64,000 nt of DNA from Sphingorhabdus wooponensis (GTDB lineage: Bacteria > Pseudomonadota > Alphaproteobacteria > Sphingomonadales > Sphingomonadaceae), in NCBI RefSeq assembly GCF_003933235.1, contig NZ_RWJI01000001.1:1060001-1124000 (forward strand), given 5' to 3'. A model generated the notes under the pieces. It was not told where the DNA came from. It did no database searches and saw nothing but the letters and a program-made list of their open reading frames with translations. Positions 1-12,705 of this stretch are shown piece by piece; the first letter of the stretch is position 1, and each line of letters starts with the position of its first letter. The position numbers were made by a program, and so were the translations under genes.

Positions 1-13
1 ATTTAAAAGAAAA

Positions 14-120
14 GCCAGCGCCTCCCGTGCAAGGAGATGCTGGCCAAGAAGGTATCTTACAATGAAATTTATAGCAAATAAATCTGCTGGTTACCAGCAG
101 AACCTTACACATGGTGTAAG
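14..120 (+). promoter_or_regulatory. Leader with three consecutive hairpins before the replication operon
   Basis: Three inverted repeats follow one another. The first is GCCAGC (14-19) with GCTGGC (39-44), with an inner CTCC/GGAG pair. The second is CTGCTGG-TTA-CCAGCAG (84-100). The third is CTTACAC-ATG-GTGTAAG (104-120), which ends three bases before the ATG at 124. The last two are perfect 7-bp stems with 3-base loops. No T-run follows, so they are not ordinary terminators. An operator pair or a translational control structure for the coupled small genes and the primase is likely, but this is inference. Confidence 0.5.
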
Positions 121-127
121 AACATGA
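62..127 (+). CDS. Possible 21-residue leader peptide
   Basis: An ATG at 62 opens 21 codons, and the TGA at 125-127 overlaps the next start codon (ATGA). A purine-rich stretch (GAAGG, 49-53) lies about 9 bases upstream and could serve as ribosome binding site. The peptide runs through both perfect hairpins at 84-120, so ribosomes translating it would melt them. That arrangement suits an attenuator-like or translationally coupled leader. The peptide itself resembles nothing I know. The reading frame could be accidental. Confidence 0.3.
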   Translation: MKFIANKSAGYQQNLTHGVRT

Positions 128-357
128 CCCGGTCGAAAGCAGTGCGCATGCGCGCAAAACGGAAGATACACGCCCAAACGCGGGTAAGGGTCGGTAGTCA
201 CACGCTCGAAGTCACGATCTACAAAGTCGACGGATTAACGGTTATTCAAAAAGAGTGGTCACCGACCAAACCGAGCGCCGCCGAGTTGCGGAACATGAAC
301 TCTGCTCTCCACAAGTCACTTCTGGAAGCCACTTGGAAAGCCGGAGGTGCCGTATGA
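124..357 (+). CDS. Small conserved-looking protein, first of two tandem paralogues
   Basis: This is a 77-residue protein with a very basic N-terminus (Arg/Lys-rich for about 20 residues) and no signal peptide or membrane segment. Residues about 22-75 align with the next gene product: both share TR-x-R, a VxI strand, DG, I-x-K-x-W-x-P, PSAxE, then a C-terminal helix with LEA and AG. The two genes are therefore diverged tandem duplicates. It ends in an ATGA overlap with the downstream gene, so the three genes up to the primase form one coupled operon. The function is unknown; a role with the replication protein (loading, regulation or accessory DNA binding) is only suggested by position. Confidence 0.7.
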   Translation: MTRSKAVRMRAKRKIHAQTRVRVGSHTLEVTIYKVDGLTVIQKEWSPTKPSAAELRNMNSALHKSLLEATWKAGGAV

Positions 358-629
358 CCGCCTTCGAAGCAATCGGCCCGCTAGAGAGCGGCCCGGGCGC
401 GGGTCTTCCGGTAATCATGCGCACCCGTCACCGCATGTCGCCAGATTACGTCGTCCAGATCACGCTGTTCGACGGCGACGGCGTATTCACGATTGGCAAG
501 AGCTGGTATCCAGATGTCCCCAGTGCGCCTGAGATGGAGGTATTTGAAAAGAAACTGGCCAAGGTTTTGGCACCCTTCCTAGAGGCGGCGCTCCAATGCG
601 CTGGATTGATGGAAGGTGACCTATGGTGA
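354..629 (+). CDS. Small protein, second tandem paralogue, coupled to primase
   Basis: I place the start at the ATG at 354, which overlaps the TGA of the previous gene and has GGAGGT at 342-347. A longer frame from 255 lies inside the previous gene and is unlikely. The product has 91 residues, no signal peptide and no membrane segment, and is more acidic than its neighbour. Its core (roughly residues 21-80) is similar to the preceding protein, with the same I-x-K-x-W-x-P-x-x-PSAxE pattern and a helical C-terminus. Its end overlaps the primase start by 7 bases. No function can be named. Confidence 0.75.
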   Translation: MTAFEAIGPLESGPGAGLPVIMRTRHRMSPDYVVQITLFDGDGVFTIGKSWYPDVPSAPEMEVFEKKLAKVLAPFLEAALQCAGLMEGDLW

Positions 630-2836
630 ACCTTCCCCAAACAGCGCCTGCGCCTCTGCGTGATATGCCGAACTGGGTGGTTTATCGGTTGGAAAAACAC
701 CCAAACGAAGACAGGCAGGAAAAAATACCACACTGGGCCGATGGTACACAGAGGTTCGGCACACAGGGCGGACCAGAGGATCGCGCACGCCTAGTGACGT
801 TTGAGGTGGCGCGTGAGGCTGCGATACGCATGGGCTTCGATGGCGTCGGCTTTGCCCACACTGAAGGGTGCGGCATTGTTACGCTCGACTTTGACAAATG
901 CGTCGGGCCTGACGGCAAGGTGCGGCAGGACGTTCTTGACCTCGTGACCATGACGTACGCCGAATACAGTCCGAGCGGCAAAGGCATCCACGCGATCTTC
1001 ATTGGTGACGCGGATATATTGGGTAACCAAAAGGCGAACGTCAGCGAGGGGCTGGACTTCTCTGTCGAGGCATTCAGCTCAAAATTGTTTACAACTTTCA
1101 CTGGCAACACGCTGGATTACGTCGACGTACTTTACGGTGCGGACTACCTAGCGCCTTTGCCAGACATCACAATCGCCGCATGTCAGAAGCGTTTCGGTCC
1201 ACAGAAAGCCAAGGACGACCCCGACGACTTCATGATCGGACATGAGCCGAAGACTGGCCTTTCCGTGTCGCAGATGGAGGGGATGCTCGCTGTTCTCGAC
1301 CCTGACATGTCACGTGAGGACTGGATCAAGCCCGGCATGGGTCTGCATCACGAGACCGACGGCGACGACACCGGCTTCGAGATCTGGAACGACTGGTCGG
1401 CGAAGGGGTCGAAGTACCCCGGTGAGGAAGAGCTGCGGAAGCAGTGGGACAGTTTTGACCGCCGTAAAAGCTCCGGGCAGGCTAACATAACAATGCGCAC
1501 CGTTAAGAAAATGGCGAAGGAGGCTGGCTACCAAGATCCTGGCATCGACATTTCCGCTGTGCAGCCCGCAGACGTGCCGAAGGTAGACGCCACGCCGTCA
1601 CACCCCCTTCTCGACCCGTTTCCCGGCTTCATGGCGGATGTGGTATACCTCGCGCTGGCGACAGCACATAAACGCCAACCGGCTATGACGTTGCTAGGAG
1701 TGTTGGTCGCCATGGCATCAGCCTGTGGGTCGAAGATCTACCTACCGGATGGGATGCGCCTTAATTTGTACGGCCTCTGCGCTGCACCCACAGGCTCAGG
1801 CAAAGACCACATCCTCCACGTCACCGGCGAGATTGCGCGCGCGGCTGGCGCACGCAGGCTCGGTGAGTTTGCATCGGGCGCAGGCCTCGAAGATGCGCTT
1901 TGCGAGGGTGGTATTTTCGCAAGTATCGACGAAATCGCGCATGTGCTCTCAGTCCGCGGAGATAACGGCGGCCAGCATGTGAGGGAAGTCGAGAAGATGC
2001 TGCTGAAGCTGTTTTCGGCGAGCAAAGCAGATTACCATACCCGAGTGAAAGCTGGCACAGCCTCGCGCTGTGTTGCCAACCCTTCGTTGAACCTGATGGG
2101 CTTCGCCGTTCCATCCAAACTCGGCGAGGCTTTAACCGAAGGTGATATTGCCTCGGGATTGCTCAACCGGATGCTGATTGCGGTCGGAGATGGTGCGGCT
2201 CGTCCTCAGCCCGGATTGCGCGAGAAGTTCGAGCTTGATGCAACGATGATCTCAAAGCTGGAAGCCCTTCGTTTCGCATCGGGAGCGATAACATTCAGCG
2301 CCGAAGCCGAACAGCGCGTCGAAGAACTGAATGTCGAGTTGTATGATGCCGAGCAACGCTTGCCCGAGGAGGCGCCAGAACGGCTTCTTCTGTCTCGGAA
2401 ACTGGAGAAGACACTCCGCATAGCTGGCGTGCTATCCGTCTTTGACTTGCCCGGTAGCCCCCAAATTAAAATCGCACACCTCGATTGGGCTATCAATTTC
2501 GTGGAGGTAAGCGACGGCATGCTTCTTCAGTTTATCGAGCGACATATGCACGGCGGCAAGGTTCAGGCAAATGCTGCGAAGGTGAAAGACATTGCGCGCT
2601 CACTCCTACTCACGCGGCCAGAGAAGTGCCGCCCGACTGAGGCACACGCTCTGGCGAAGGGCTATGCGCCCGTATCGCTGGTTGCCAAGCGGTGTCATCT
2701 AAATGTGTCGGACATGAAAGACGCGATAGCTCAGTTGGAAATGTGTGGGGATATGCAGAAAACTACTTTTGCGCACGCGCCAACTCACGGCAGAGGCGGC
2801 AAATGCGACGTCATCTATTTTCCGAATGATTTGTGA
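623..2836 (+). CDS. Replication protein: PrimPol-like primase fused to a helicase-type ATPase
   Basis: The protein has 737 residues in three parts. Residues about 1-190 look like a mobile-element primase-polymerase domain of the NrS-1/DUF-type, with catalytic acids in LDFDKC (D89, D91) and the SPSGKGIH motif near 117-124. Residues about 205-305 match the PriCT-2 linker domain (W-x-x-x-G-M-G-L-H-H, WNDWS, W-x-S-F). Residues about 330-737 are a DUF3987-like ATPase domain with Walker A APTGSGKD (about 386-393) and a Walker B-like FASIDEI near 430. Such proteins prime and unwind DNA for replication of plasmids, satellites and integrative elements. The gene overlaps the preceding small gene and lies just before the iteron palindrome at 2847-3071, its probable binding site. 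No frameshift is seen. Confidence 0.85.
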   Translation: MVNLPQTAPAPLRDMPNWVVYRLEKHPNEDRQEKIPHWADGTQRFGTQGGPEDRARLVTFEVAREAAIRMGFDGVGFAHTEGCGIVTLDFDKCVGPDGKVRQDVLDLVTMTYAEYSPSGKGIHAIFIGDADILGNQKANVSEGLDFSVEAFSSKLFTTFTGNTLDYVDVLYGADYLAPLPDITIAACQKRFGPQKAKDDPDDFMIGHEPKTGLSVSQMEGMLAVLDPDMSREDWIKPGMGLHHETDGDDTGFEIWNDWSAKGSKYPGEEELRKQWDSFDRRKSSGQANITMRTVKKMAKEAGYQDPGIDISAVQPADVPKVDATPSHPLLDPFPGFMADVVYLALATAHKRQPAMTLLGVLVAMASACGSKIYLPDGMRLNLYGLCAAPTGSGKDHILHVTGEIARAAGARRLGEFASGAGLEDALCEGGIFASIDEIAHVLSVRGDNGGQHVREVEKMLLKLFSASKADYHTRVKAGTASRCVANPSLNLMGFAVPSKLGEALTEGDIASGLLNRMLIAVGDGAARPQPGLREKFELDATMISKLEALRFASGAITFSAEAEQRVEELNVELYDAEQRLPEEAPERLLLSRKLEKTLRIAGVLSVFDLPGSPQIKIAHLDWAINFVEVSDGMLLQFIERHMHGGKVQANAAKVKDIARSLLLTRPEKCRPTEAHALAKGYAPVSLVAKRCHLNVSDMKDAIAQLEMCGDMQKTTFAHAPTHGRGGKCDVIYFPNDL

Positions 2837-2846
2837 TTTCCGAGGC

Positions 2847-3071
2847 ATCTGTCCGCAACTGTCCGCAGTGATTTGCGGACAGATAAACGTCTGATTTCCG
2901 AGGGGTTGAGGGGTAAAATGCTTACTGTCCGCAAATACCCACCCTCACAAAATATACCTCTCCTCGTACGAGTTAGGGGGGCAAACTGCGGACAGCTCGT
3001 TTTTCCCCTGTGACCCGCATAAATCCAACATTTATCTGTCCGCAAATCACTGCGGACAGTTGCGGACAGAT
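2847..3071. repeat. Iteron-rich giant palindrome, candidate replication origin
   Basis: A perfect 41-bp inverted repeat lies at 2847-2887 and 3031-3071. Inside and between the arms are eight copies of the 9-mer CTGTCCGCA: forward at 2849, 2859, 2925 and 3036, reverse at 2874, 2987, 3051 and 3061. The copies at 2925 and 2987 mirror each other around nearly the same centre (about 2960) as the arms, so the whole 225 bp is one imperfect palindrome. The centre holds an AT-rich patch (about 2948-2956) and the palindrome CTCGTACGAG (2963-2972). A 12-bp direct repeat (TGATTTCCGAGG) occurs at 2834 and 2892. Iterons next to a primase-helicase gene are typical of satellite and plasmid origins, P4 being the classic case. 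Confidence 0.7.
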
Positions 3072-3286
3072 AGCCCCCTCGTAAAATTTTACGTGCACTC
3101 CAAACTGCCCAGCTTCTCCCGCGGAGCGTGTCACATTGCAATTTTTTACAAGTTACAGAACCATGGCTCCTCCGGGGAAGTGATCTGAAAAAACTACCGG
3201 TTGCCATAACCGCAACCGATATATCGACAAAAACGATGAAATATGCCATTTGCGCAGAGTATTTCGATTAATCTGCGGAGGCAAGC
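3072..3286. other. Non-coding stretch with a hairpin before the next gene
   Basis: Together with the iteron palindrome this makes a 450-bp gene-free region. The remainder contains AAAATTTTACG-type AT-rich DNA near 3082-3092 and a 7-bp stem hairpin CGGTTGC/GCAACCG at 3198-3218. A GGAGG ribosome binding site (3276-3280) precedes the ATG at 3287. The promoter of the next gene should be here, but I cannot pick convincing -35/-10 boxes. Confidence 0.4.
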
Positions 3287-3907
3287 ATGGGCGGACACGG
3301 ATCTGGGCGACGCAGCAACCGTTGGACCACGGACGACTGCCTCCGCATCAACCTCTCGAACCTAAAGCAGCTCGGCAATTTGCAACGGAATTGGATGGCC
3401 CGACATGAGGAAGTGAGGAGCCAATACGGCCAGACCACCGCAAGGCTAACGGTGGTAACCGACGTTCACTGCCTTGAACCTTCGCCATGTCTGAGGGTCA
3501 CGGGACACGCGTTCGGCAAGGTCATTAACTGCGTGGTGTATCTGGAAGAGCAGCCCTTGCCTTATGGCGGGGAGCGTTGGTTCGCATTGTGCCCGCATAC
3601 GGGCCGCAGGTGCACCGCGCTGGTGCTACCGCCGGGTCAGACCCACTTTGCCTCTGTAAAGGGCTGGAACGTGGCCTACGGCTCGCAACGAGAGTGCCCG
3701 ATACACCGAGGCCACCGCGCCATATACAAGGCTCAGGAGCGCCGAAAGGCGCTGTCCAAGTATACGCGTAAGCCAACGCGAGAAAGGCTGTTGGACAAGC
3801 TGATCGAGCGGCAGGTATTCGTTGATGAGCAGATCGACAAGCTGATGGAGATGGTGTTTCGATGCGATGCCGCAGCGGGTGCACGCCGACGCGGGAACGG
3901 TTGGTAG
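3287..3907 (+). CDS. Conserved hypothetical protein of the MGGHGSGRR type
   Basis: The 206-residue product begins with MGGHGSGRR, a signature of a proteobacterial protein family that usually carries a zinc-ribbon-like cysteine core. Here the core is seen as FALCPHTGRRC followed about 36 residues later by ECPIH, so the usual Cys pairs are partly replaced by His. The C-terminus (about 160-190) is a basic-then-acidic helix, TRERLLDKLIERQVFVDEQI. The same helix is encoded again at 3889-3957 in another frame, so the gene has an internal duplication with a frameshift; the present stop at 3905 lies inside the second copy. GGAGG precedes the start. The biochemical function is unknown. Confidence 0.7.
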   Translation: MGGHGSGRRSNRWTTDDCLRINLSNLKQLGNLQRNWMARHEEVRSQYGQTTARLTVVTDVHCLEPSPCLRVTGHAFGKVINCVVYLEEQPLPYGGERWFALCPHTGRRCTALVLPPGQTHFASVKGWNVAYGSQRECPIHRGHRAIYKAQERRKALSKYTRKPTRERLLDKLIERQVFVDEQIDKLMEMVFRCDAAAGARRRGNGW

Positions 3908-4029
3908 ATCGGTTGATCGAGCGTCAGGTCTTTGTTGAGGAGCAAATCGACAAGCTGGCACAGATGGGCCGTCGGGTTGTCAGTCTTGGTATTCCTGATA
4001 TCGCGAGCTTAACTTGTAACATCGGTTAG
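3862..4029 (+). pseudogene. Frameshifted second copy of the C-terminal helix, or a 55-residue overlapping ORF
   Basis: An ATG-initiated frame at 3862-4029, shifted -1 relative to the preceding gene, encodes TRERLVDRLIERQVFVEEQI, almost identical to the helix at the end of that gene. The two DNA copies (about 3778-3852 and 3889-3963) are clearly a tandem duplication. It could be the lost tail of the 3287 gene, a separately translated small protein, or the product of a programmed frameshift. No slippery heptamer is obvious. It ends at TAG 4027-4029, overlapping the convergent regulator gene. Confidence 0.45.
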
Positions 4030-4272
4030 CAGCGCAGACGGCGTTGTGTTCAGTGCCACAGCTATCGAAGTTATAACTTTCAGTGATGGGTTTCTTTGGG
4101 CGCGCTCGATCCCGCCTAAATACCTGACGTCTACCCCTACTCGGTGGGACAGCTCTTCCTGAGACATGCCCATCTGACGCCTCTTTTGGAGGACGTTGGT
4201 TGCAAAAACGCTAACCCAGTTCACCTCGCTATTCACCTGAGCGCTTAGGCGCTGTTGTAATAATTCAAACAA
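4009..4272 (-). CDS. XRE-family HTH transcriptional regulator
   Basis: A short protein (87 residues from a TTG start at 4272; 71 from an internal GTG at 4224, which gives the more usual N-terminus before the first helix). It is almost entirely one Cro/C1-type helix-turn-helix: QKRRQMGMSQEELSHRVGVD, then YLGGIERAQRNPSLKVI and a final helix. Such small regulators act as dimeric repressors on operators near their own promoter. A perfect 14-bp palindrome (4273-4286) sits immediately upstream and would control this gene and the divergent exported-protein operon beginning at 4349. Its tail overlaps the frameshifted ORF on the other strand. Confidence 0.85.
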   Translation of the reverse strand: MFELLQQRLSAQVNSEVNWVSVFATNVLQKRRQMGMSQEELSHRVGVDVRYLGGIERAQRNPSLKVITSIAVALNTTPSALLTDVTS

Positions 4273-4286
4273 GGAACTATAGTTCC
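4273..4286. promoter_or_regulatory. 14-bp palindrome, candidate operator
   Basis: GGAACTATAGTTCC is a perfect palindrome between the divergent XRE regulator and the exported-protein operon. A related half site, GGAACTA, occurs at 4340-4346 just before the start codon at 4349. The size and position fit an operator for the XRE protein, but binding is inferred. Confidence 0.5.
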
Positions 4287-4348
4287 CATCAATGATATTT
4301 GCTGGTCGAGCGCGCTGGAGAATTCTTCGCGCTTGAGGGGGGAACTAG

Positions 4349-5038
4349 ATGAAAAAATTGATAACATTCGGCGTGGCGTTTTTAGCTGCCACAGGATCGC
4401 ATGCTCAGCAGCAGGTAAGCACCGCTGAGCAAGTAGTTTCTGCTAATGCCCCGGTCGCTTTAGAGCAGTGTGAATTGCGGGTTTTCCCAACGCTTGAAGC
4501 AGGCGCCGACACACGGACCCTTGTAGGTAGCTTTGGACTAATAGGTGCGCTTGTCGATGCCGCCGCTACTGAAAAGCAAGATGCCACTGATGGTGCGTAT
4601 CTGAAAGAAGCCCTTGCACCACCGCAGCAGGTAAAAGCTCTTTCCAGCTTCGATCTTGTTGGGGCGTTAAAGTTGCCGTCGTCGAACGTGGTGTTCGAAG
4701 AACCGCTGGCTAACAAATCTCTTAATTCTAAGCAAAGGCTAACCGGTTCAACAGTCAATTGTTACTTTGAATTGGTGATCACTAAAAATCAGTACATGAA
4801 AGCGCCTCTTAGCGGCGGTTCGTTGTCAAACAGCTTTGTTCTAAGGGACTTCCGCGCAGTGAAGCCACGAGCTGGGGTGCACGCAGGCCGCGTTGGCAAG
4901 GTATACAAGGGCCGTGGAGACACGGGCCTCAAGGTCTTCCCGCCGGAAACCACTTACATGACCGAAGAGGCTGAAAAGGAGCTTCACGGAGCGTTCGCTG
5001 CCAACGTGCGGGAATTTGCGGCGAAAATAAAAAAATAG
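4349..5038 (+). CDS. Exported hypothetical protein
   Basis: The 229-residue protein begins with a clear Sec signal peptide (MKK, hydrophobic core, cleavage after SHA near residue 19). The mature part has two cysteines (CELRVFP near residue 41 and NCYFEL near 137), which could form a disulfide in the periplasm. No membrane segment follows. It has a strong GAGGGGGGAAC ribosome binding region. It is the first gene of a same-strand run (4349-7806) of exported proteins that leads into the TbpB-like lipoprotein and Slam, so a role at the envelope is likely. I do not recognise the family. Confidence 0.75.
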   Translation: MKKLITFGVAFLAATGSHAQQQVSTAEQVVSANAPVALEQCELRVFPTLEAGADTRTLVGSFGLIGALVDAAATEKQDATDGAYLKEALAPPQQVKALSSFDLVGALKLPSSNVVFEEPLANKSLNSKQRLTGSTVNCYFELVITKNQYMKAPLSGGSLSNSFVLRDFRAVKPRAGVHAGRVGKVYKGRGDTGLKVFPPETTYMTEEAEKELHGAFAANVREFAAKIKK

Positions 5039-5109
5039 CAACACTTAGGCAGGGTTGGCGGCTGTCGACACTGTGAGACTTACTTTGGCCGTTAACATTG
5101 GGGTGATAT

Positions 5110-5661
5110 ATGAAAAAAGTTGTGACTAGCATTATGATGCTAATGATTTCCACGAACGCTTTGGCACAGGGCCAAGCAAGTGTCGTTCAAACCCCGTCAG
5201 GCGCCGTCGGTGTTGCTAGCCAATCGGAGGTCACGCTACCATCCAACACAGAAGTCATTCTGCGAATGACGGATGATTTGACAACCAAGGGTGGAAAAAT
5301 CGAAGTAGGGCACGTGTTCCGGCTGACGGTTGCATTTGACGTTCGAGCACAGGGTGTTGTGGTTATCCCTGCTGGCACGCCAGCAACTGGAGAAGTAACC
5401 ATGCGAACCGGCAAGGCCGTTTTCGGCAAATCGGGAAAAATGGACGTAGAGCTGCGCCAAATCGATTTGTATGGCCGCCGCATCCCTGTGACTGGGAAAT
5501 ACCGCCAAGAGGGTGAAGGCAACACGCTAGCTGCCGTGGGTGCTGTTTTCTTAGCCGCTGGCTTGATGTTTGTTACCGGCAAGAGCGCCGTGATCCCTAG
5601 AGGCCGCGAACTTGTTGCGTACACAATCACCCCTGAACCATTTCCTGTACCCAGCAAATAA
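5110..5661 (+). CDS. Exported hypothetical protein with hydrophobic C-terminal segment
   Basis: The 183-residue product starts with a signal peptide (MKKVVTSIMMLMISTNALAQ). The mature domain is beta-rich (TEVILRMTDDLTTKGGKI, GHVFRLTV, VVIPAGTPATGEV) and resembles the conserved domain of uncharacterised alphaproteobacterial envelope proteins; the wording is reminiscent of TrbI/VirB10-type beta domains but too weak to claim. A hydrophobic stretch, AAVGAVFLAAGLMFVTG, at about 138-154 could be membrane-inserted. It lies 71 bp after the previous gene and 26 bp before the lipoprotein gene, so it is probably cotranscribed with them. Confidence 0.75.
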   Translation: MKKVVTSIMMLMISTNALAQGQASVVQTPSGAVGVASQSEVTLPSNTEVILRMTDDLTTKGGKIEVGHVFRLTVAFDVRAQGVVVIPAGTPATGEVTMRTGKAVFGKSGKMDVELRQIDLYGRRIPVTGKYRQEGEGNTLAAVGAVFLAAGLMFVTGKSAVIPRGRELVAYTITPEPFPVPSK

Positions 5662-5687
5662 TTTAGTTTCGAAGTTAGGAACGTTCT

Positions 5688-6650
5688 ATGGATAGACGTA
5701 TTGCAGTTGGCTCTGCCATCGTGTTTTCGTTGCTATCAGCCTGTGGCGGCGGCGGAAGCGGCGGCGGTGTGAGTTCAACACCAGCGCCTCCAATAAACAC
5801 TCCTCCACCTCCACCTCCACCTCCACCGCTACCACCTCCTCCTCCGCCGACTACTTTCACAAATTGGCAGTCAGCGCCTACCAATGGTGTAGTTAGGCTG
5901 TCTGGGAGCACGGTTGAGGCGCCTAATACTAACCCAACCGGATTAAGTATTTCTGGCGCTCCAAATATATTTGGCACTTTGGGCACTGTCAGTGCTGGGG
6001 ACCTCACCTTAGATATTACCTACGCGGCAAATGCCCAGACCGGTTTTGCGGTGCGAGGTGGGCTGTCATCTGTGAACTTTACTAATTCCGACGGCTCAAC
6101 GAAAATACGGCTCGCAGACAGCCCGAGTATCATAAAATATTCATCCCCCAGCGGGACAACCACGTTGTATGTGGCGGACCCAACTGTGGCTGGCTACTCC
6201 TACATGACTTATGGAGCTTGGGGTGGAAAAACTGCAACCGGAGGACTTAGTAACGGGTTCCATGGCGGCAGCGTCACACCGTCCGGATCAGTTCCTACAT
6301 CTGGTTCTGTTACATATACGGGCGCGGCAGTTGGCTATTACGCCGACGAAGGTGGAAATAGAATTCGTGAATTTACTGATCGTGTAACTTTAGCCGCAAA
6401 TTTTGGATCAAGGTCGCTGCTTTTTTCGGCACCGGGCATAGTCGGTACATTAACATACAGCTCGGGTTCGAGTACATTTTCTGGACCAATTTCGTCTAAT
6501 ACAAATTTCGGTTGGTCTGGAACCGCCACAGGTAGCTTTTATGGCCCGGGTGCTCAAGAAGTTGCGGGGACATTTTTTATGAGGAGTATCTTCGGTACTT
6601 GCAGCCCCGGATGCCAATTCGTTGGGGCGTTTGGAGCTAAGCGCCCTTAA
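5688..6650 (+). CDS. TbpB-like surface lipoprotein, predicted Slam substrate
   Basis: A 320-residue lipoprotein: the signal peptide ends in the lipobox LLSAC with Cys19 as acylation site, followed by a Gly/Ser linker and a proline-rich spacer (about residues 36-57). The C-terminal half has the hallmarks of the 8-stranded barrel of transferrin-binding-protein-B-like lipoproteins: alternating Gly-rich strands, GTATGSFYGPGAQEVAGTF near 283-301 and a terminal FVGAFGAKR. Such barrels (TbpB, LbpB, HpuA, fHbp families) are displayed on the cell surface by Slam translocons. The next gene encodes a Slam homologue 13 bp downstream. The ligand is unknown; an iron or heme source is possible by analogy only. 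A CSPGC pair lies in the last strands. Confidence 0.8.
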   Translation: MDRRIAVGSAIVFSLLSACGGGGSGGGVSSTPAPPINTPPPPPPPPPLPPPPPPTTFTNWQSAPTNGVVRLSGSTVEAPNTNPTGLSISGAPNIFGTLGTVSAGDLTLDITYAANAQTGFAVRGGLSSVNFTNSDGSTKIRLADSPSIIKYSSPSGTTTLYVADPTVAGYSYMTYGAWGGKTATGGLSNGFHGGSVTPSGSVPTSGSVTYTGAAVGYYADEGGNRIREFTDRVTLAANFGSRSLLFSAPGIVGTLTYSSGSSTFSGPISSNTNFGWSGTATGSFYGPGAQEVAGTFFMRSIFGTCSPGCQFVGAFGAKRP

Positions 6651-6663
6651 CAGGGCTATTTGA

Positions 6664-7806
6664 ATGACACCCGTGGATGTCAATGCCCAGGTAATCGTTA
6701 CCTCCCCTGCGGAGATCGACAGCCAGTTTCAATCGGCACTACGCTTGATCGATATCGGTCAGGCACAGTTAGCTGTGCCAATCTTGCAAGAGTTGTCCAA
6801 AAAAACTGCCTCAAATCGTATTCGCCTTGAATTAGCCCGCGCCCTGTCGTTCTCTGGCCAGTATGAAGAGGCCCGACGGCTTTTTGTTTTGATATACAAA
6901 GAAGGGCCGCCCCCAGCGGTGAAGCTAACGATCCTTAGGTTCATCGACCAAATTGACCTGCGGCGTGGAAAATTTACGTTCAGCGTATCCGCAGCGAAAA
7001 TGTCGAACCCACTTAACCAGCCGGATGCAGTGCAGGTCTTCTTTCTTGGTACACCATTCACCATCCAGTTAAACCAAGAAGACCGGAACCTATCGGGCAT
7101 TATCCTAAACGCCGGTTACGAAAGAATTTTCGGCAACGGATACAGTATACGTGCAATCACTTCACACCGTGAAATGCCAAAGCATCCGAACGCAGATCTA
7201 ACAAGTGGCGACTTTTCTGTCGGCAAGCAAATCGCGAGTAAACCGCTGGAAGTAAGGGCTGGCTTTCAATTCCAGCACATGACGAACCAGTCTTCCAATA
7301 TGCCCTATGTGGAAATCGGCTATCGAAAAGAGCTTGCTCCTGAGATTGACGTCCAGCCAAGGTTGCAGGTTGGATATCATAGCTTTCAAGGTGGAGCAGG
7401 ATTGTCAGGTATGAGCTACCGGGTCCATGCCCCTGTTACATATTCACCAAAACCGACACTAGGCGTGTCTATTGGACCACGCATAGAGTTCAGAGACACG
7501 GCTTTTGCCGAACAGCGCTTTGTTAGTGCGGGGTTAGCATTAGATGCCGCCTACACTGCCAACGATTTCACGATCTCAGCGACGGTATTTCCATATACCA
7601 CTCAGTTCCAAGCGACTGACCCTTTCTGGGGAAAAAGGCGTTCTGATAAGGCGTTGTTCGTAGGCGCTGTTCTCAGTTCCGACTATTTGAGAGTTGGAGG
7701 TTTCATCCCCACCTTAAGCCCCTATTGCGGGTTTAACAGCTCGAATATCACCTACTATAAGGTTAACAACTGCGGGATCAGTTTTGCTGCTCGTAAGATT
7801 TTCTGA
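6664..7806 (+). CDS. Slam-type surface lipoprotein assembly modifier (DUF560 barrel)
   Basis: The 380-residue protein has a short TPR-like helical N-domain (about 14-80, with LELARALSFSGQYEEARRLF) and a beta-barrel C-domain (about 100-380) ending in a terminal phenylalanine (ARKIF), as expected for BAM-inserted outer-membrane proteins. The final region FWGKRRSDKALFVG ... LRVGGFIPTLSP ... SSNITYYKVNN follows the conserved Slam/DUF560 C-terminal pattern. Slam proteins move TbpB-like lipoproteins across the outer membrane, and the adjacent upstream gene is such a lipoprotein. Oddly, no signal peptide is seen: an in-frame TGA lies directly before the ATG at 6664, and the protein starts with what looks like mature sequence. 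Confidence 0.8.
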   Translation: MTPVDVNAQVIVTSPAEIDSQFQSALRLIDIGQAQLAVPILQELSKKTASNRIRLELARALSFSGQYEEARRLFVLIYKEGPPPAVKLTILRFIDQIDLRRGKFTFSVSAAKMSNPLNQPDAVQVFFLGTPFTIQLNQEDRNLSGIILNAGYERIFGNGYSIRAITSHREMPKHPNADLTSGDFSVGKQIASKPLEVRAGFQFQHMTNQSSNMPYVEIGYRKELAPEIDVQPRLQVGYHSFQGGAGLSGMSYRVHAPVTYSPKPTLGVSIGPRIEFRDTAFAEQRFVSAGLALDAAYTANDFTISATVFPYTTQFQATDPFWGKRRSDKALFVGAVLSSDYLRVGGFIPTLSPYCGFNSSNITYYKVNNCGISFAARKIF

Positions 7807-7883
7807 TCTGCCACGCGGCTGTAAGTCGCTTACTGTCGAAGAACGTTTAACCGGGGGATAACCTTTTCCTTCGTTCTATCGCC

Positions 7884-8168
7884 TTAATGCGACCTCTGCC
7901 AAGCTTCGACCTGCGCCCTGCTGATCTCTTCAGGATAACAAATCGGCGCAGCTCCTCCAGCTCGGCTCCACGCGCTGCGTCGACCACATGAAGAACCATT
8001 GCGAGCGCTATTGTAAGGGCAAGCGCAACTACCGGGATACGACGCAATCGATGCAGAGATGATCTGCTGCCGAATTTGAGCATCTGACAGCCTGCTTCTC
8101 GCTTCAGTGACCGAAGCCGTTGCAGCTAATGCGCAAATTCCAATGATTATCGCGGTAAAGCTTCTCAT
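7884..8168 (-). CDS. Small secreted Cys-rich protein of the SYPGxCACPYN family
   Basis: I start it at the ATG at 8168 (94 residues), preceded by GAGGGG; a longer frame to 8210 is less likely. It has a signal peptide (MRSFTAIIIGICALAATASV ... EA) and a conserved pattern seen in many proteobacterial small secreted proteins: IRQQIISASIASYPG, CACPYN, CGRRSAWSR and GGAAPICYP. Four cysteines in the mature part suggest disulfides. The family is often found near secretion or mobile-element genes, but its function is unknown to me. It is convergent with the Slam gene. Confidence 0.75.
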   Translation of the reverse strand: MRSFTAIIIGICALAATASVTEARSRLSDAQIRQQIISASIASYPGSCACPYNSARNGSSCGRRSAWSRAGGAAPICYPEEISRAQVEAWQRSH

Positions 8169-8291
8169 TCTAAGCCCCTCATGGTGCATCAACCAAATCG
8201 GCACCCTCACCGGCTCCTTTTTGAAATAGAAGTCAGCTTGCCTTCAATTAGACAGGTCCGTAACATATTAAATGGATGGAGAGAGGTAACT

Positions 8292-8585
8292 ATGAAGTCA
8301 AGAAATTGGATATTACCGATACTTTTAGCCTTGTCCGCTTGTGGTGATGAATGCAGTTCATACTCAGATTACAGCTGCAAACAGATATCCAAAGCTAACT
8401 ACAATGTGTATTTCTATATGCCAAACGGGGATCAGATTTACCTCGGCGAAACCGAAGGGCTTAAATCATGCGGCAACAGTGCATGGGGCTATGCAACACA
8501 AAAAAATATAAGCGAGAATACCGACTGGGGCTACATTTGCTGTATGATTGCAAAAGGCTCATCTTGTTATGAGAAGCACAGATAG
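8292..8585 (+). CDS. Small Cys-rich lipoprotein
   Basis: The start at ATG 8292 is preceded by GGAGAGAGG and gives 97 residues; an upstream in-frame ATG at 8181 would bury the signal. The signal peptide ends in the lipobox ALSAC. The mature part has seven further cysteines and the pattern NYNVYFYMPNGD, LGETEGLKSCG, WGYICCMIAKGSSCYEKHR, which I recognise as a conserved uncharacterised family (the Y-CC ... EKHR ending is typical). It lies opposite the 7884 gene, which is also a Cys-rich exported family. Confidence 0.75.
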   Translation: MKSRNWILPILLALSACGDECSSYSDYSCKQISKANYNVYFYMPNGDQIYLGETEGLKSCGNSAWGYATQKNISENTDWGYICCMIAKGSSCYEKHR

Positions 8586-8668
8586 AATGAAGTCAATCCA
8601 GCAGGCAGCGCATTGGCCTGCGATCCGTCTGCATAGGAAGTATCGTTAATCGATTGTGGACTTGAAAC

Positions 8669-9238
8669 TCATTTAGATGACTTCAAACGTAGCTCGATGC
8701 TAGTTATCGCTTTTGCACTCTCCAGCGTTGACATTTTATCTATCGCAATCAGCTCAGCCTTATGTTTGGCCAGATAGTAAGCAATATCAGCCGCATAATC
8801 ACTGCCGGACATCATCTCGATAATACGTTCACTAAACGGAACATCGGATGCAAAAATCACATTATCAAAGTCAGCAAACAGGTGCATCCGCGGCTGGGCT
8901 GCTACCAACCATTTCTCAATAGTTTGGTTTAGAGTTGAAGGTGAGCTAGTAGCGGATGCGTCCCCTGCCCCAGCCGATGGAACATAGGGAGGCGTGTTGT
9001 CACGGCGCATGTAATCAGTCTGCTGTCTTATACGCTCGGCTTCGGCCCTGTCCCGCTCTGCTCTTGCCCTTGAAGCTTCCATCGCCTCAAGTCGTTGCAT
9101 CTGTAATATTGGGTCAGGCATTTTTATCTGAGGGGGGCGAACCTTTAACGCCACCATGGGATCGAAGCCCTGTCCAAAGGCACTATTGGGTACGAGCACA
9201 ATAAGTGACGCGGTAAATACAAAACGCAGAATTTTCAC
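8669..9238 (-). CDS. Exported hypothetical protein with coiled-coil region
   Basis: The frame is open up to a GTG at 9304 that overlaps the stop of the upstream gene (GTGA), but a GTG at 9238 puts a normal signal peptide (VKILRFVFTASLIVLVPNSAFG) at the very N-terminus, and I prefer it (189 residues). After a Pro-rich stretch comes a charged helix rich in Arg, Ala and Glu (MQRLEAMEASRARAERDRAE), likely a coiled coil, followed by a Ser/Ala linker and a C-terminal helical domain. The gene appears co-transcribed with the gene at 9301-9630. Function unknown. Confidence 0.65.
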   Translation of the reverse strand: MKILRFVFTASLIVLVPNSAFGQGFDPMVALKVRPPQIKMPDPILQMQRLEAMEASRARAERDRAEAERIRQQTDYMRRDNTPPYVPSAGAGDASATSSPSTLNQTIEKWLVAAQPRMHLFADFDNVIFASDVPFSERIIEMMSGSDYAADIAYYLAKHKAELIAIDKMSTLESAKAITSIELRLKSSK

Positions 9239-9300
9239 AGTCGCATACCTTAATTCGTGAGCTTCGATAATCTTGACAAGTTGCATAGGCCCTATGCCAT

Positions 9301-9630
9301 TCACCTTACCTGATGGACTTTGTCTCCGACGATCATTACCATACTACTACTGCCGTTGGATAAAATTAATGCACGTGGACGAAGGGCATATTGATAGCCG
9401 TAGCTCGAACAAGTTACGTATTTCCCGTCATCAAAAACAATGACACGACCAAAGCGGCATCCTCTAAAGGATGTTTCTTCCCCATCATCGTCGATACTCT
9501 TCGAAATGGTTTTAACAGCTACGATTGTATACCCAACGTAAGACGAAAGGTCATCTGCCAGATCTGCCTTTACCGGTGGTGTCCACAGAGCGAGAATAGC
9601 TATCAGTGTTGCAACCTTGGCAAATCTCAT
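9301..9630 (-). CDS. Exported hypothetical protein
   Basis: A 109-residue protein with a signal peptide (MRFAKVATLIAILALWTPPV, cleavage near KA) and a compact beta-rich mature domain: YVGYTIVAVKTI, FRGCRFGRVIVFDDGKYVTC and a final MVMIVGDKVHQVR. Two cysteines could pair. It is the first gene of the leftward pair with the coiled-coil protein and the last gene before the tRNA boundary. The ribosome binding region is AAGGAACG. I do not recognise the family with certainty. Confidence 0.7.
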   Translation of the reverse strand: MRFAKVATLIAILALWTPPVKADLADDLSSYVGYTIVAVKTISKSIDDDGEETSFRGCRFGRVIVFDDGKYVTCSSYGYQYALRPRALILSNGSSSMVMIVGDKVHQVR

Positions 9631-9908
9631 TTTCGTTCCTTAGGTAACCCTTTTGACCGGCCACCACTAAATGGCCCGAGTTGATTGCTAGAACGTAATG
9701 CCATCTTTGGCCAGTGTTGGTCGCAGGTGGAGCATCATGGGGCCGCAGGGTCACACTAGCAAAGGAGCGGCGTGTAGGATGCGGATGTGCGTTACTCCTG
9801 CCCTGCTCCTACTTGCATCAAACAGGCTTGCTGTTTTCGTCAAAGTGGTGGGACAAGTGGTGGGATAAACCGCATCTATTCCAATAATTAACGTATTTGC
9901 GTTGTAAT
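9631..9908. other. Element end region with tandem 12-bp repeat, probable attachment arm
   Basis: No gene is supported here. A tandem repeat AAGTGGTGGGA(C/T) occurs at 9843-9854 and 9855-9866, 43 bp from the tRNA 3' end. AGGAGC (9763) and GCTCCT (9805) form an inverted pair. Short direct repeats near an attachment site are typical arm-type binding sites for tyrosine integrases, which supports this as the right end of the element. This is inference from position. Confidence 0.5.
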
Positions 9909-9998
9909 TGGCGGAGAGATAGGGATTCGAACCCTAGGTACCGTCACCGGCACGCCGCATTTCGAGTGCGGTGCTTTCGACCACTCAGCCATCTCTCC
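9909..9998 (-). tRNA. tRNA-Ser (anticodon CGA)
   Basis: The reverse strand folds as a class II tRNA: acceptor GGAGAGA paired with TCTCTCC, D-loop with GGCTGAGTGGTCGAAAGC, anticodon stem CCGCA/TGCGG around the loop CTCGAAA (anticodon CGA at 9962-9964), a long variable arm, and the T-arm GGGTTCGAATCCC. The discriminator G is followed by an encoded CCA (9909-9911). It reads UCG serine codons. The gene remains complete at the junction, as expected when an integrated element restores the tRNA 3' end. Confidence 0.95.
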
Positions 9999-10130
9999 GC
10001 AATTCATAGGGACTGGTCATTGCCGTAAAAACGGCGCATCCCCATGACAGAGCGGGGCCATTAACCCAAGTTTTTCGCTTTGCCAAGCCACAAGGTTGAT
10101 TTGCGCGCCAGAAGATATGATATTGTAGCC

Positions 10131-10481
10131 ATGATTGACCAAATAGCTCCTCCCGACATTGTCGAAACGAAGTTTTCTATCGGTGATGTTGTGCGCCATC
10201 GCATATTCGATTTTCGCGGTGTCGTGTTCGACATTGATCCTGTGTTTGCCAATAGCGAAGAATGGTATCAGTCCATCCCCGAGCCGGTAAGGCCAGCAAA
10301 AGACCAGCCATTTTACCACCTATTCGCCGAAAATGCCGAGAGCAGCTATATCGCTTATGTGAGCCAGCAGAATTTACTGCCCGACCATCAACAAGGGCCC
10401 ATCAACCACCCCGGCATTGATGCGGTTTTTGAAGGGTGGGATGGCGACCAATATCAATTGAAGCGGCTTATGCGTCAGTAA
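10131..10481 (+). CDS. hspQ: Heat shock protein HspQ (YccV-like hemimethylated-DNA-binding fold)
   Basis: The 116-residue product contains the HspQ/YccV signature: KFSIGDVVRHRIFDFRGVVF, DIDPVF, then QPFYHLFAENAESSYIAYVS and QNLLPD. HspQ influences DnaA stability and acts as a Lon-protease specificity factor in enterobacteria; its role in alphaproteobacteria is less studied. The ATG at 10131 gives the usual short N-terminus; upstream in-frame codons from 10080 belong to the tRNA leader side and are unlikely. It is the first core gene beyond tRNA-Ser. Confidence 0.85.
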   Translation: MIDQIAPPDIVETKFSIGDVVRHRIFDFRGVVFDIDPVFANSEEWYQSIPEPVRPAKDQPFYHLFAENAESSYIAYVSQQNLLPDHQQGPINHPGIDAVFEGWDGDQYQLKRLMRQ

Positions 10482-10514
10482 ACTTTGCGTGACCGGCGAG
10501 TGATGCCAAAAGGC

Positions 10515-11213
10515 TTATGCTGCGTCCGCAAGAATCCAATCTACACCTGCGTCGGCATGAATTTCGGCGCTGTCATAGATAGGCAGGACATTGGCTTTGG
10601 TGTCGACGAGCATGCTTAACTCGGTGCAACCCAGCACAACCGCTTTCATGCCTTGCTGATCAATTTCAGTGATGATCGTTTTCAACATGCGTTCGGAATC
10701 GCGTTTTACTACGCCGTGCATCAGTTCGTCATAGATGATACGCTCAACGTCTTGGACATCGTCCATCTCAGCGGGCAGCAAGGATACGCCATGCTTTACG
10801 AGGCGCTGACGATACCAATTTTCCGCCATGACATTTGCCGTACCCAGCAACGCGGCAGACGAAACGGCGTCCGCCTGCATTTTCGCACCAACCGAGTCGG
10901 CAATATGGATGATCGAGATCGAAACAGCCGCGGCCACATCATCAAACACTTTATGCATGCTGTTGGCGCAAATGAGTATCGCGGTGGCACCAGCCTGTTC
11001 CAGACGGCGTGCAGAAGCAATCAGCACGTCTGCCACATGGGCCCAGTCTTCCTGTGTGCTGGCCTTACCGACATCACAGAAATTAAGGCTCTCCATCAGC
11101 AACGGCGCATTGCACGTCCCATTGGTGCGCCGGAGGACCTGTTTATTGATGCGTGCGTAATATAATTCGGTCGAATACCAGCTCAATCCGCCGATCAGTC
11201 CAAGTTTACGCAT
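10515..11213 (-). CDS. Aspartate/glutamate racemase family protein
   Basis: A 232-residue cytoplasmic enzyme of the Asp/Glu/hydantoin racemase superfamily (YgeA/RacX-like). It begins MRKLGLIGGLSW and has the two catalytic-cysteine regions ILICANSMHK (about residue 83) and VVLGCTELSML (about 195), which provide the acid/base pair for cofactor-independent racemisation. I choose the second of two close ATG codons (11213; also 11219) because AAGG lies 8 bases upstream. The exact substrate (aspartate, glutamate or another amino acid) cannot be read from the sequence. It is separated from the pnt operon by a terminator. Confidence 0.8.
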   Translation of the reverse strand: MRKLGLIGGLSWYSTELYYARINKQVLRRTNGTCNAPLLMESLNFCDVGKASTQEDWAHVADVLIASARRLEQAGATAILICANSMHKVFDDVAAAVSISIIHIADSVGAKMQADAVSSAALLGTANVMAENWYRQRLVKHGVSLLPAEMDDVQDVERIIYDELMHGVVKRDSERMLKTIITEIDQQGMKAVVLGCTELSMLVDTKANVLPIYDSAEIHADAGVDWILADAA

Positions 11214-11230
11214 GTTCATTACCTTTGATA

Positions 11231-11264
11231 GAAACAAATACCGCCCCGATTTGGCTCGGGACGG
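11231..11264 (-). terminator. Rho-independent-type terminator after pntB
   Basis: On the minus strand a 9-bp stem (11256-11264 with 11241-11249, one G-U pair) with a 6-base loop is followed by TATTTGTTTC. It lies between pntB and the racemase gene and probably ends the transhydrogenase transcript. Confidence 0.65.
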
Positions 11265-11292
11265 CATTTATCTATCGATAGCTTGAACTGGC

Positions 11293-12705
11293 CTAGTGCT
11301 GCAAGGCTTTGACGATGTCTTCGCACATCTTCTTCGCATCGGCGAGAAGCATCATCGTTTGGTCCATGTAGAACACGTCATTGTCAACGCCGGCATAGCC
11401 AACGCCGCCCATGGAACGCTTCACGAAGAACACGGTCTTTGCCTTATCGACGTCAAACACGGGCATGCCATAAATGGGCGAAGTCTTGTCCGTTTTCGCC
11501 GCGGGGTTCACAACGTCATTGGCGCCAATGATGAAGGCGACATCGGCTTGTGCAAATTCGCTATTGATATCCTCAAGCTCGAAAACTTCGTCATAAGGCA
11601 CGGATGCTTCAGCCAACAAAACGTTCATATGGCCGGGCATACGCCCCGCAACAGGGTGGATCGCATATTTCACCGAAACGCCCTGCTTTTTCAAAACATC
11701 TGCCATTTCGCGTAATATGTGCTGCGCCTGCGCAACCGCCATGCCGTAGCCGGGTACGATGATGACGCTTTCCGCCTGCTGCATCATATAAGCCGCATCT
11801 TCGGCGGAGCCGCGCTTCCAAGGGCGCTGTTCCTTAGCTTCGCCGCCCGATACAGCTGCCTCCGCACCGAAGCCACCCGCGATCACGCTGATGAAGCTGC
11901 GGTTCATGGCCTTGCACATGATGTAGGACAAAATCGCCCCCGACGAGCCGACAAGCGCACCGGTGATGATCATTGCTGTGTTATGCAGCGTAAAGCCCAT
12001 GGCAGCCGCCGCCCAACCCGAATAGCTGTTCAGCATCGACACCACGACGGGCATATCCGCGCCACCGATGGGGATGATGAGCAAGAAGCCAATGAGGAAA
12101 GCCAGCGCGGTAACGGTCCAGAAAATCCAAGGGCTTTGGTCCACAGTGAAGTAACCAATAAGGCCAAGGATTGCCGCCAAAGTGCCCAAGTTGATAACAT
12201 GGCGCAGCGGCAAGAGGATTGGCGCGCCCGACATTTTTCCCGCCAGTTTCAGAAATGCGATGACGGATCCTGAGAAGGTGATTGCACCGATCGCGATGCC
12301 CAAGCCCATTTCTACACGGCTGACGGGGTTAATCAGGCCATCTTCACCAACAATACCAAAGGCACTGGGGTTCAAAAACGCGGCAGCCGCGACCAATACA
12401 GCCGCCATACCGACGAGCGAGTGGAACGCCGCCACAAGCTGCGGCATGTCGGTCATCGCAATCTTACGCGCCGTGACCCAACCAATGCCGCCACCGATGG
12501 CGATAGCCCCCATAATTTCAGGCAGAGACGCAACATCATGCGTGACCAATGTCGTTACCACGGCAATCAACATTCCAGCCATACCGAAGTGATTGCCGCG
12601 TTGCGATGTGGCGGGCGAAGACAATCCGCGCAGCGCCAATATGAAAAACACGCCCGAAATCAAATATGCGAGCATGACCCATGCGGGGGGAGCGATATGT
12701 TCCAA
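11293..12705 (-). CDS. pntB: NAD(P) transhydrogenase subunit beta
   Basis: The 470-residue membrane protein has many hydrophobic helices (residues 1-260) and a C-terminal NADP(H)-binding domain III with VIIVPGYGMAVAQAQH, the fingerprint Gly motif, and GANDVVNPAAKTD. The enzyme couples hydride transfer from NADH to NADP+ to proton inflow and so supplies NADPH. It is the last gene of the pntAA-pntAB-pntB order, separated from pntAB by 1 bp. The split three-gene form is typical of alphaproteobacteria such as Rhodospirillum. Confidence 0.95.
   Translation of the reverse strand: MEHIAPPAWVMLAYLISGVFFILALRGLSSPATSQRGNHFGMAGMLIAVVTTLVTHDVASLPEIMGAIAIGGGIGWVTARKIAMTDMPQLVAAFHSLVGMAAVLVAAAAFLNPSAFGIVGEDGLINPVSRVEMGLGIAIGAITFSGSVIAFLKLAGKMSGAPILLPLRHVINLGTLAAILGLIGYFTVDQSPWIFWTVTALAFLIGFLLIIPIGGADMPVVVSMLNSYSGWAAAAMGFTLHNTAMIITGALVGSSGAILSYIMCKAMNRSFISVIAGGFGAEAAVSGGEAKEQRPWKRGSAEDAAYMMQQAESVIIVPGYGMAVAQAQHILREMADVLKKQGVSVKYAIHPVAGRMPGHMNVLLAEASVPYDEVFELEDINSEFAQADVAFIIGANDVVNPAAKTDKTSPIYGMPVFDVDKAKTVFFVKRSMGGVGYAGVDNDVFYMDQTMMLLADAKKMCEDIVKALQH

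Follow-up and report, generated by a model that had tools for sequence, protein, structure and literature searches.

A candidate replication origin with eight iterons and a 41-bp inverted repeat, behind the PrimPol-helicase gene of an element integrated in tRNA-Ser(CGA)

Beginning 10 bp behind a gene for a primase-helicase is a 225-bp segment that carries copies of CTGTCCGCA in both orientations and is bounded by the arms of a long inverted repeat, which raises the question of whether this segment is the replication origin at which the product of the preceding gene acts. The gene and the array have the following positions within the window, as we call the whole 64-kb stretch of DNA that was analyzed (G000:C1:1060001-1124000):

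623..2836, + strand: initiator gene, 737 aa, with PrimPol, PriCT-2, DUF3987 MCM-like AAA+ and a C-terminal winged helix
2847..2887, + strand: left arm of the 41-bp inverted repeat
2849..2857, + strand: iteron 1, CTGTCCGCA
2859..2867, + strand: iteron 2, CTGTCCGCA, 10 bp after iteron 1
2874..2882, - strand: iteron 3, reverse
2925..2933, + strand: iteron 4
2934..2986, no strand: center between the innermost iterons, 49% GC, a candidate melting region
2987..2995, - strand: iteron 5, reverse
3031..3071, - strand: right arm of the 41-bp inverted repeat
3036..3044, + strand: iteron 6
3051..3059, - strand: iteron 7, reverse
3061..3069, - strand: iteron 8, reverse, 10 bp after iteron 7

A first-pass annotation of this DNA had described perfect 41-bp arms with four forward and four reverse iterons, and both descriptions held. 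The arms (2847-2887 and 3031-3071) are fully complementary, and they were the sole pair returned from the window by a scripted search for perfect inverted repeats of at least 14 bp with arm starts at most 300 bp apart, whereas the longest inverted repeats in 20 mononucleotide shuffles of the window reached 11-13 bp at most. All eight exact copies of CTGTCCGCA were mapped, forward (+) at 2849, 2859, 2925 and 3036 and as the complement at 2874, 2987, 3051 and 3061, so that each arm holds three sites and the other two lie between the arms, the outer iterons forming doublets with 10-bp spacing. No further exact copy was found in the 64 kb, and 200 whole-window shuffles contained 0.58 copies on average. 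On the other hand, the same annotation had portrayed the entire segment as a near-perfect 225-bp palindrome with an AT-rich center, and here it erred: 144 of the 225 positions are self-complementary, 82 of them in the arms and 62 among the 143 positions elsewhere, so that only the arms are palindromic, and the GC content is 49% in the arms, in the center (2934-2986) and in the two stretches between, compared with 54.6% for the window.

Folded as DNA, the strand reaches -80.3 kcal/mol (z = -14.1 against 200 shuffles), and BLAST found the segment as a single copy in its own genome. Among 249 genomes of the same family, only that of the window contained the doublet CTGTCCGCAACTGTCCGCA; an IMG/VR contig with a lone CTGTCCGCAACTGTCCGCA doublet and no array was taken as chance. 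No DnaA box was found in 2601-3400 with one mismatch allowed, nor any promoter in 2600-3500 by a search confined to the sigma-70-like type.

The putative initiator comprises a PrimPol domain (residues ~4-195), a PriCT-2 domain (221-298), a DUF3987 MCM-like AAA+ domain (~334-640; PF13148, 6.8e-15) and a winged helix (~646-732). Its N-terminus is an NrS-1-type PrimPol, an archaeo-eukaryotic primase, and the predicted model of its ATPase has the MCM fold of MCM-type AAA+ helicases, family and fold thus agreeing with the initial description of a PrimPol-type primase fused to a helicase ATPase. A sequence search of the PDB with a profile of five sequences (A2) returned primase chains and nothing else, aligned to the N-terminal part. 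PMC5862659 describes, in its passages on initiators of mobile genetic elements, a PrimPol-PV1/PrimQH type that combines an AEP primase, PriCT, a P-loop ATPase (DUF3987 included) and a winged helix. All four parts are present here, but the AEP part resembles NrS-1, which the same passages group with pRN1-like PrimPol proper. Using the primase as query, tblastn returned 244 phage and 56 plasmid records, all below 60% identity, and the 56 plasmid records all fell short of 80% coverage. Relatives of residues 321-737 (E 1e-20) were found in three of 397 same-family genomes, including the window's own and the metagenome-assembled genome (MAG) that holds locus L011, and the alignment of close primases yielded two loci in the genome collection and none in IMG/VR.

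The gene and the array belong to an integrative element, of which four further features fall within the window:

357..629, + strand: small gene before the primase, 90 aa, no family match
3287..3907, + strand: MGGxGSGRR protein gene after the array, no Pfam or PHROG match
9906..9922, no strand: attR, 17-bp direct repeat AATTGGCGGAGAGATAG, with its partner outside the window at G000:C1:1057654
9909..9998, - strand: tRNA-Ser(CGA), the integration site

The 17-bp direct repeat AATTGGCGGAGAGATAG bounds the element at C1:1057654 and C1:1069906, its second copy lying at the 3' end of tRNA-Ser(CGA), and in a genome of the same genus (G389) the flanks join over a single copy of the repeat. From the two repeats and this empty site, the element measures 12,252 bp (~12.25 kb), the last 9.9 kb of which are inside the window. 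A related 16-kb element with the same repeat occupies the same tRNA in the MAG Sphingomonadales bacterium 28-55-16, which is of one genus with the window's genome; the repeat was found in L024. The genes are, from the left, a tyrosine integrase (PF00589, 4e-12, and related domains), a gene that overlaps int by the four nucleotides ATGA (GCGCATGATTG at the int stop), an AlpA-like gene (PF05930, 4e-4, at 20.7 bits just below the cut-off of 21), two small genes and the primase-helicase, to the right of which come the palindrome, the MGGxGSGRR gene and cargo. The ATGA overlap recurs in L011, the locus of the 28-55-16 element, and in a second element of the window's own genome, and of the ten sphingomonad loci that were compared, five have an MGGxGSGRR gene behind the primase. 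No terminase, capsid protein or relaxase was found by Pfam (16 element proteins) or PHROGs (15), PADLOC gave no match for nine element proteins, and the tRNA was the only Rfam match in 1-12000.

The last 88 residues of a 211-aa cargo protein without a Pfam family (8669-9304, - strand) match PHROG 8865, 'head scaffolding protein' (E 6e-8), which may tie the element to phages. Also among the cargo, 5688-6650 encodes a putative lipoprotein whose beta-barrel domain is of the TbpB type (PF01298, 3e-9) and the next gene, 6664-7806, a SlipAM protein (surface lipoprotein assembly modifier, Slam-like; 1e-6), so that the two look like a substrate/exporter pair. In another genome (L028, G269:C1:2292001-2310000) tRNA-Ser(CGA), in the same gene neighborhood, adjoins a different element, whose integrase is broken up over several frames and which has a primase-like gene of 507 aa, and this tRNA looks like an integration hotspot.

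Taken together, we consider it highly probable that the palindrome serves the 12.25-kb element in tRNA-Ser(CGA) as its replication origin and is bound by the element's own initiator in two opposed assemblies. Following excision of the element, the PrimPol-MCM-like AAA+ initiator would bind the CTGTCCGCA iterons via its C-terminal winged helix, the two oppositely oriented sets of iterons would each position a helicase assembly, the pair pointing in opposite directions, the duplex in between would open, and the PrimPol would prime both strands for bidirectional replication. This reading draws support from the position of the array, which starts 10 bp past the initiator gene much as the origins of PICI lie immediately 3' of rep (PMC6092414, in its description of PICI replication), from the iterons kept in L011, from the way in which iterons follow the helicase/winged-helix half in three lineages, from the enrichment of arrays behind homologous primases described below, and from the att repeats with their empty site. 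Against it count the many related loci that have no array, the center that is not AT-rich and the DnaA box that was not found.

In the locus of the 28-55-16 element (L011), seven of the eight iterons are exact (four forward, three reverse) and the eighth has one mismatch, and the center 2934-2986 differs only in how long a G run is. Seven of the 41 stem positions are mismatched, six of which correspond to a flipped inner 6-nt spacer in the right arm; because the array was kept with these seven positions unpaired, the iterons are conserved more than the perfect stem. The inner hairpin of that arm (L011:10408-10431) points the opposite way from the window's, which would fit a flip or a copy made from the other strand.

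Further relatives carry other repeats. In a Sphingomonadaceae MAG (L012), three forward and four reverse sites, seven in all with up to one mismatch, are of the CTGTnCGAC type and resemble the window's iterons; they stand behind a primase whose helicase/winged-helix half matches the window's at 55% and whose PriCT-2 part (163-316) does so at 47%, the first 160 residues being different. The second element of the window's own genome (L006, G000:C1:880001-900000), which comprises an integrase, HTH_17, a YdaS-like gene, a PriCT_2-AAA_25 primase and an MGGxGSGRR gene, bears ATGCTTCA-type repeats, a head-to-head array of TGCTTCA behind its primase; that primase shares 54% identity with the window's over residues 9-311 (PrimPol and PriCT-2), and no similarity was detected beyond them. 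No att repeat longer than 12 bp was found for this second element, nor were its borders. L012 and the second element, as opposite cases, suggest that the iteron sequence is chosen by the helicase/winged-helix half and not by the PrimPol, as judged from the sequences of three lineages and five loci. An array similar by eye to that of the second element was seen in G269, where locus G269a scores 0 with both of the detectors described next.

To see how general such arrays are, we scanned 320 bp around and behind the primase stop at 50 loci, namely 40 of the 61 phylum-wide DUF3987 matches (398 genomes) and ten from sphingomonads, six of which came from a family search, the others being the window, L011, L012 and the second own element. 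A detector of exact 7-9-mers with at least two copies per orientation scored 14 of the 50 loci, none of the 50 stretches upstream of these genes, and 67 of the 3792 windows that served as background. Leaving out the window, its relative L011 and the second own element gave 11 of 47; 36 of the 50 loci, L012 and G269a among them, had no array by this detector. A tolerant detector at a minimum of five copies scored 11 of 50 loci as against 9 among 403 stretches at the 3' ends of other long ORFs (P = 8e-7; because the loci are related to one another, this and the following P values are too small). As both detectors were written after five loci had been seen, the tolerant counts were also taken without these five, giving, out of 45 loci, 16 at four or more copies, 8 at five or more and 6 at six or more. 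Thirty of the 40 phylum loci had already been run in the first pass of the exact detector; among the other ten, the exact detector scored one (L096) and the tolerant one, at four or more copies, three (L085, L096, L098). No Fis gene was found, by one motif, beside any of the 50 loci.

A fresh test set of 80 loci was drawn from IMG/VR, of which 75 were kept (four lacked a stop or had less than 300 bp behind it, and one was a duplicate). The tolerant detector scored 21 of 75 loci versus 14 of 173 controls at four or more copies (P = 1e-4) and 8 of 75 versus 3 of 173 at five or more (P = 0.004), with no significant difference at six or more (2/75 versus 0/173; P = 0.09); 54 of the 75 loci had no array at four or more copies. 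The exact detector scored 9 of 75 versus 5 of 173 (P = 0.013), with 2 of 67 upstream stretches and 27 of 1563 background windows, and among the 20 closer relatives the counts were 3 (exact) and 7 (tolerant). The inverted-array layout is thus over-represented behind such primases, yet far from universal. The refuting outcome named in the first-pass annotation, homologous primases elsewhere without any palindrome behind them, did not occur for L011, the nearest relative with available DNA, nor, with other repeats in place, for L012 and the second own element; distant loci gave mixed results.

Nine plasmid-borne DUF3987 loci, hand-picked from hit lists, two of them on replicons as large as 187 kb and 1.7 Mb, gave an array in six cases. 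Strong arrays were found on an 18-kb plasmid of Streptomyces NBC_00562 (3+5), on the 17-kb Priestia plasmid p3 (2+3) and on Paracoccus pTAV4. L127 and L129, both small plasmids, have arrays behind their DUF3987 genes; L123, L126 and L128 scored 0. Plasmids pBT01 and pDSM110093_d carry other replication genes. In RHOAph a 24-bp perfect inverted repeat directly follows the DUF3987 gene, and it is this repeat alone that counts, since the detector match stems from a self-complementary 8-mer; pSR11 has a 46-nt inverted repeat at 80% near its DUF3987 gene. RHOAph (L125, NZ_OW485609.1) is a 10.7-kb extrachromosomal molecule encoding a prohead protease/major capsid fusion, a DUF3987 protein, ParA and toxin-antitoxin genes, and looks like a satellite. 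At L069 the iterons lie inside a reading frame that directly follows the primase gene (7587-9101, - strand) and that, translated by eye, consists there of short repeats such as ATSATSAT and KVAKVAEVA.

Among the alternatives, the one that survives best, though we think it unlikely, is a stem-loop (cruciform) origin in which the initiator recognizes the extruded structure and not the duplex iterons. The strong fold (-80.3 kcal/mol, z -14) and the inverted repeats of RHOAph (24 bp, perfect) and pSR11 (46 nt at 80%) are consistent with it, and pRN1 depends on a stem-loop of 100 bp located 3' of the gene for its PrimPol-helicase-winged-helix protein (PMC4234260, in the part on that origin). However, L011 keeps its iterons with 7 of 41 stem positions mismatched, and several related arrays consist of short tandem iterons with no long perfect stem. 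Cruciform extrusion, raised as a possibility in the first-pass annotation, is weakened as the key feature by L011, and the long palindrome is read as an extreme of the inverted-iteron layout and not mainly as a cruciform.

Repeated inverted sites beside genes are typical of operators, and the array does lie upstream of the gene at 3287-3907, so that it might autoregulate the initiator or control the MGGxGSGRR gene instead of serving as an origin. That is very unlikely, as eight sites are spread across 225 bp behind, rather than before, the initiator gene, a search of 2600-3500 confined to sigma-70-like promoters returned nothing, and arrays also occur behind the DUF3987 genes of the two small plasmids L127 and L129. 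Highly improbable, too, is a rolling-circle or transfer origin (dso/oriT) or a phage packaging site: palindromes occur in nic sites, but a nick site does not need eight iterons, and neither relaxase nor terminase was found among the element proteins (16 by Pfam, 15 by PHROGs). In favor of rolling circle, concatemers of PICMI, the minimalist satellites of Vibrionaceae, are called consistent with that mode in a passage of PMC10803314. Chance, or a decaying functionless repeat, would fit the many related primases without an array and is next to negligible given 41 bp against 11-13 bp in shuffles, conservation in L011 and a single copy in the genome by BLAST.

The preferred reading, an iteron origin bound by its own initiator, has a close parallel in layout, here read from sequence, in PICI, where the region immediately 3' of rep is described as the origin with two sets of iterons (PMC6092414) and where SaPI Rep reads the iterons with its C-terminal domain (PMC7581432, in its account of Rep). 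The array likewise stands immediately 3' of the initiator gene in two sets; unlike in PICI, the initiator is a DUF3987 PrimPol fusion, the region between the sets is 49% GC and not AT-rich, the sets are joined into a 41-bp perfect palindrome, and there is no known helper. With pRN1 of Sulfolobus, whose protein needs a palindrome 3' of its own gene, the element shares PrimPol, helicase and winged helix in a single protein and a palindrome behind the gene, whereas pRN1 is an archaeal plasmid with an SF3 helicase and an origin that the relevant passages of PMC4234260 present without iteron structure. The window thus joins features of PICI and pRN1, its iterons being laid out as a long palindrome, and its candidate origin is best read as laid out like that of PICI but lacking an AT-rich middle, having a palindrome of unusual length and depending on a PrimPol-MCM-like initiator.

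As to gene content, PICMI are outlined in PMC10803314 with int, an ATGA-overlapping gene, an AlpA regulator (PF05930 or PF12728), one or two small genes and a primase with DUF3987 or DUF5906. The order here resembles theirs, the AlpA-like gene staying just under the PF05930 cut-off, and no capsid or terminase gene was found; the differences are a tRNA-Ser(CGA) site instead of fis, a sphingomonad host, a length of 12.25 kb with cargo, no known helper phage, and an overlap gene that is comparable to iolg in its ATGA position. The word 'iteron' is absent from the main text of the PICMI paper (PMC10803314), literature searches returned no published origin description for int/AlpA/DUF3987-primase elements and no paper mentioning both DUF3987 and iteron, and the window now offers a concrete 225-bp candidate origin for such elements. 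We did not file the element as PICMI because fis is not used and no helper is known. The CP4-57 element of E. coli K-12, which uses a different integration site (ssrA), shares the gene order (intA, alpA, yfjI, the last with DUF3987) but lacks an array behind the primase, both detectors scoring 0 behind yfjI.

Origin function in an integrative element, as first proposed, is thus favored by the anatomy, the att repeats with their empty site, the relatives and the array enrichment, all at the level of sequence, and weakened by the mixed distant loci. A bolder extension, which we regard as possible but rather doubtful, is that a PrimPol-MCM-like initiator loading two head-to-head hexamers on a dyad of inverted iterons right behind its own gene defines a widespread class of bacterial mobile replicons, with an iteron specificity that resides in the C-terminal winged helix and shifts when domains are swapped and, in such a dyad, the missing origin of PICMI-type satellites; if true, bacteria would have their own equivalent of the MCM double hexamer known from archaea and eukaryotes. 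The comparison initially drawn with satellite phage P4 stands as an analogy only. P4 combines a primase-helicase and its cognate ori with an integrase and Vis, a relative of AlpA (PMC6092414, in its remarks on P4), and the element resembles it in having a primase-helicase beside a candidate ori, an integrase and an AlpA-like gene, but the P4 alpha primase is described as Toprim type (PMC4234260, where P4 is mentioned) whereas the one here is an archaeo-eukaryotic NrS-1-type PrimPol. Membership in the P4 group was rejected on these grounds, PICI, PICMI and pRN1 being closer.
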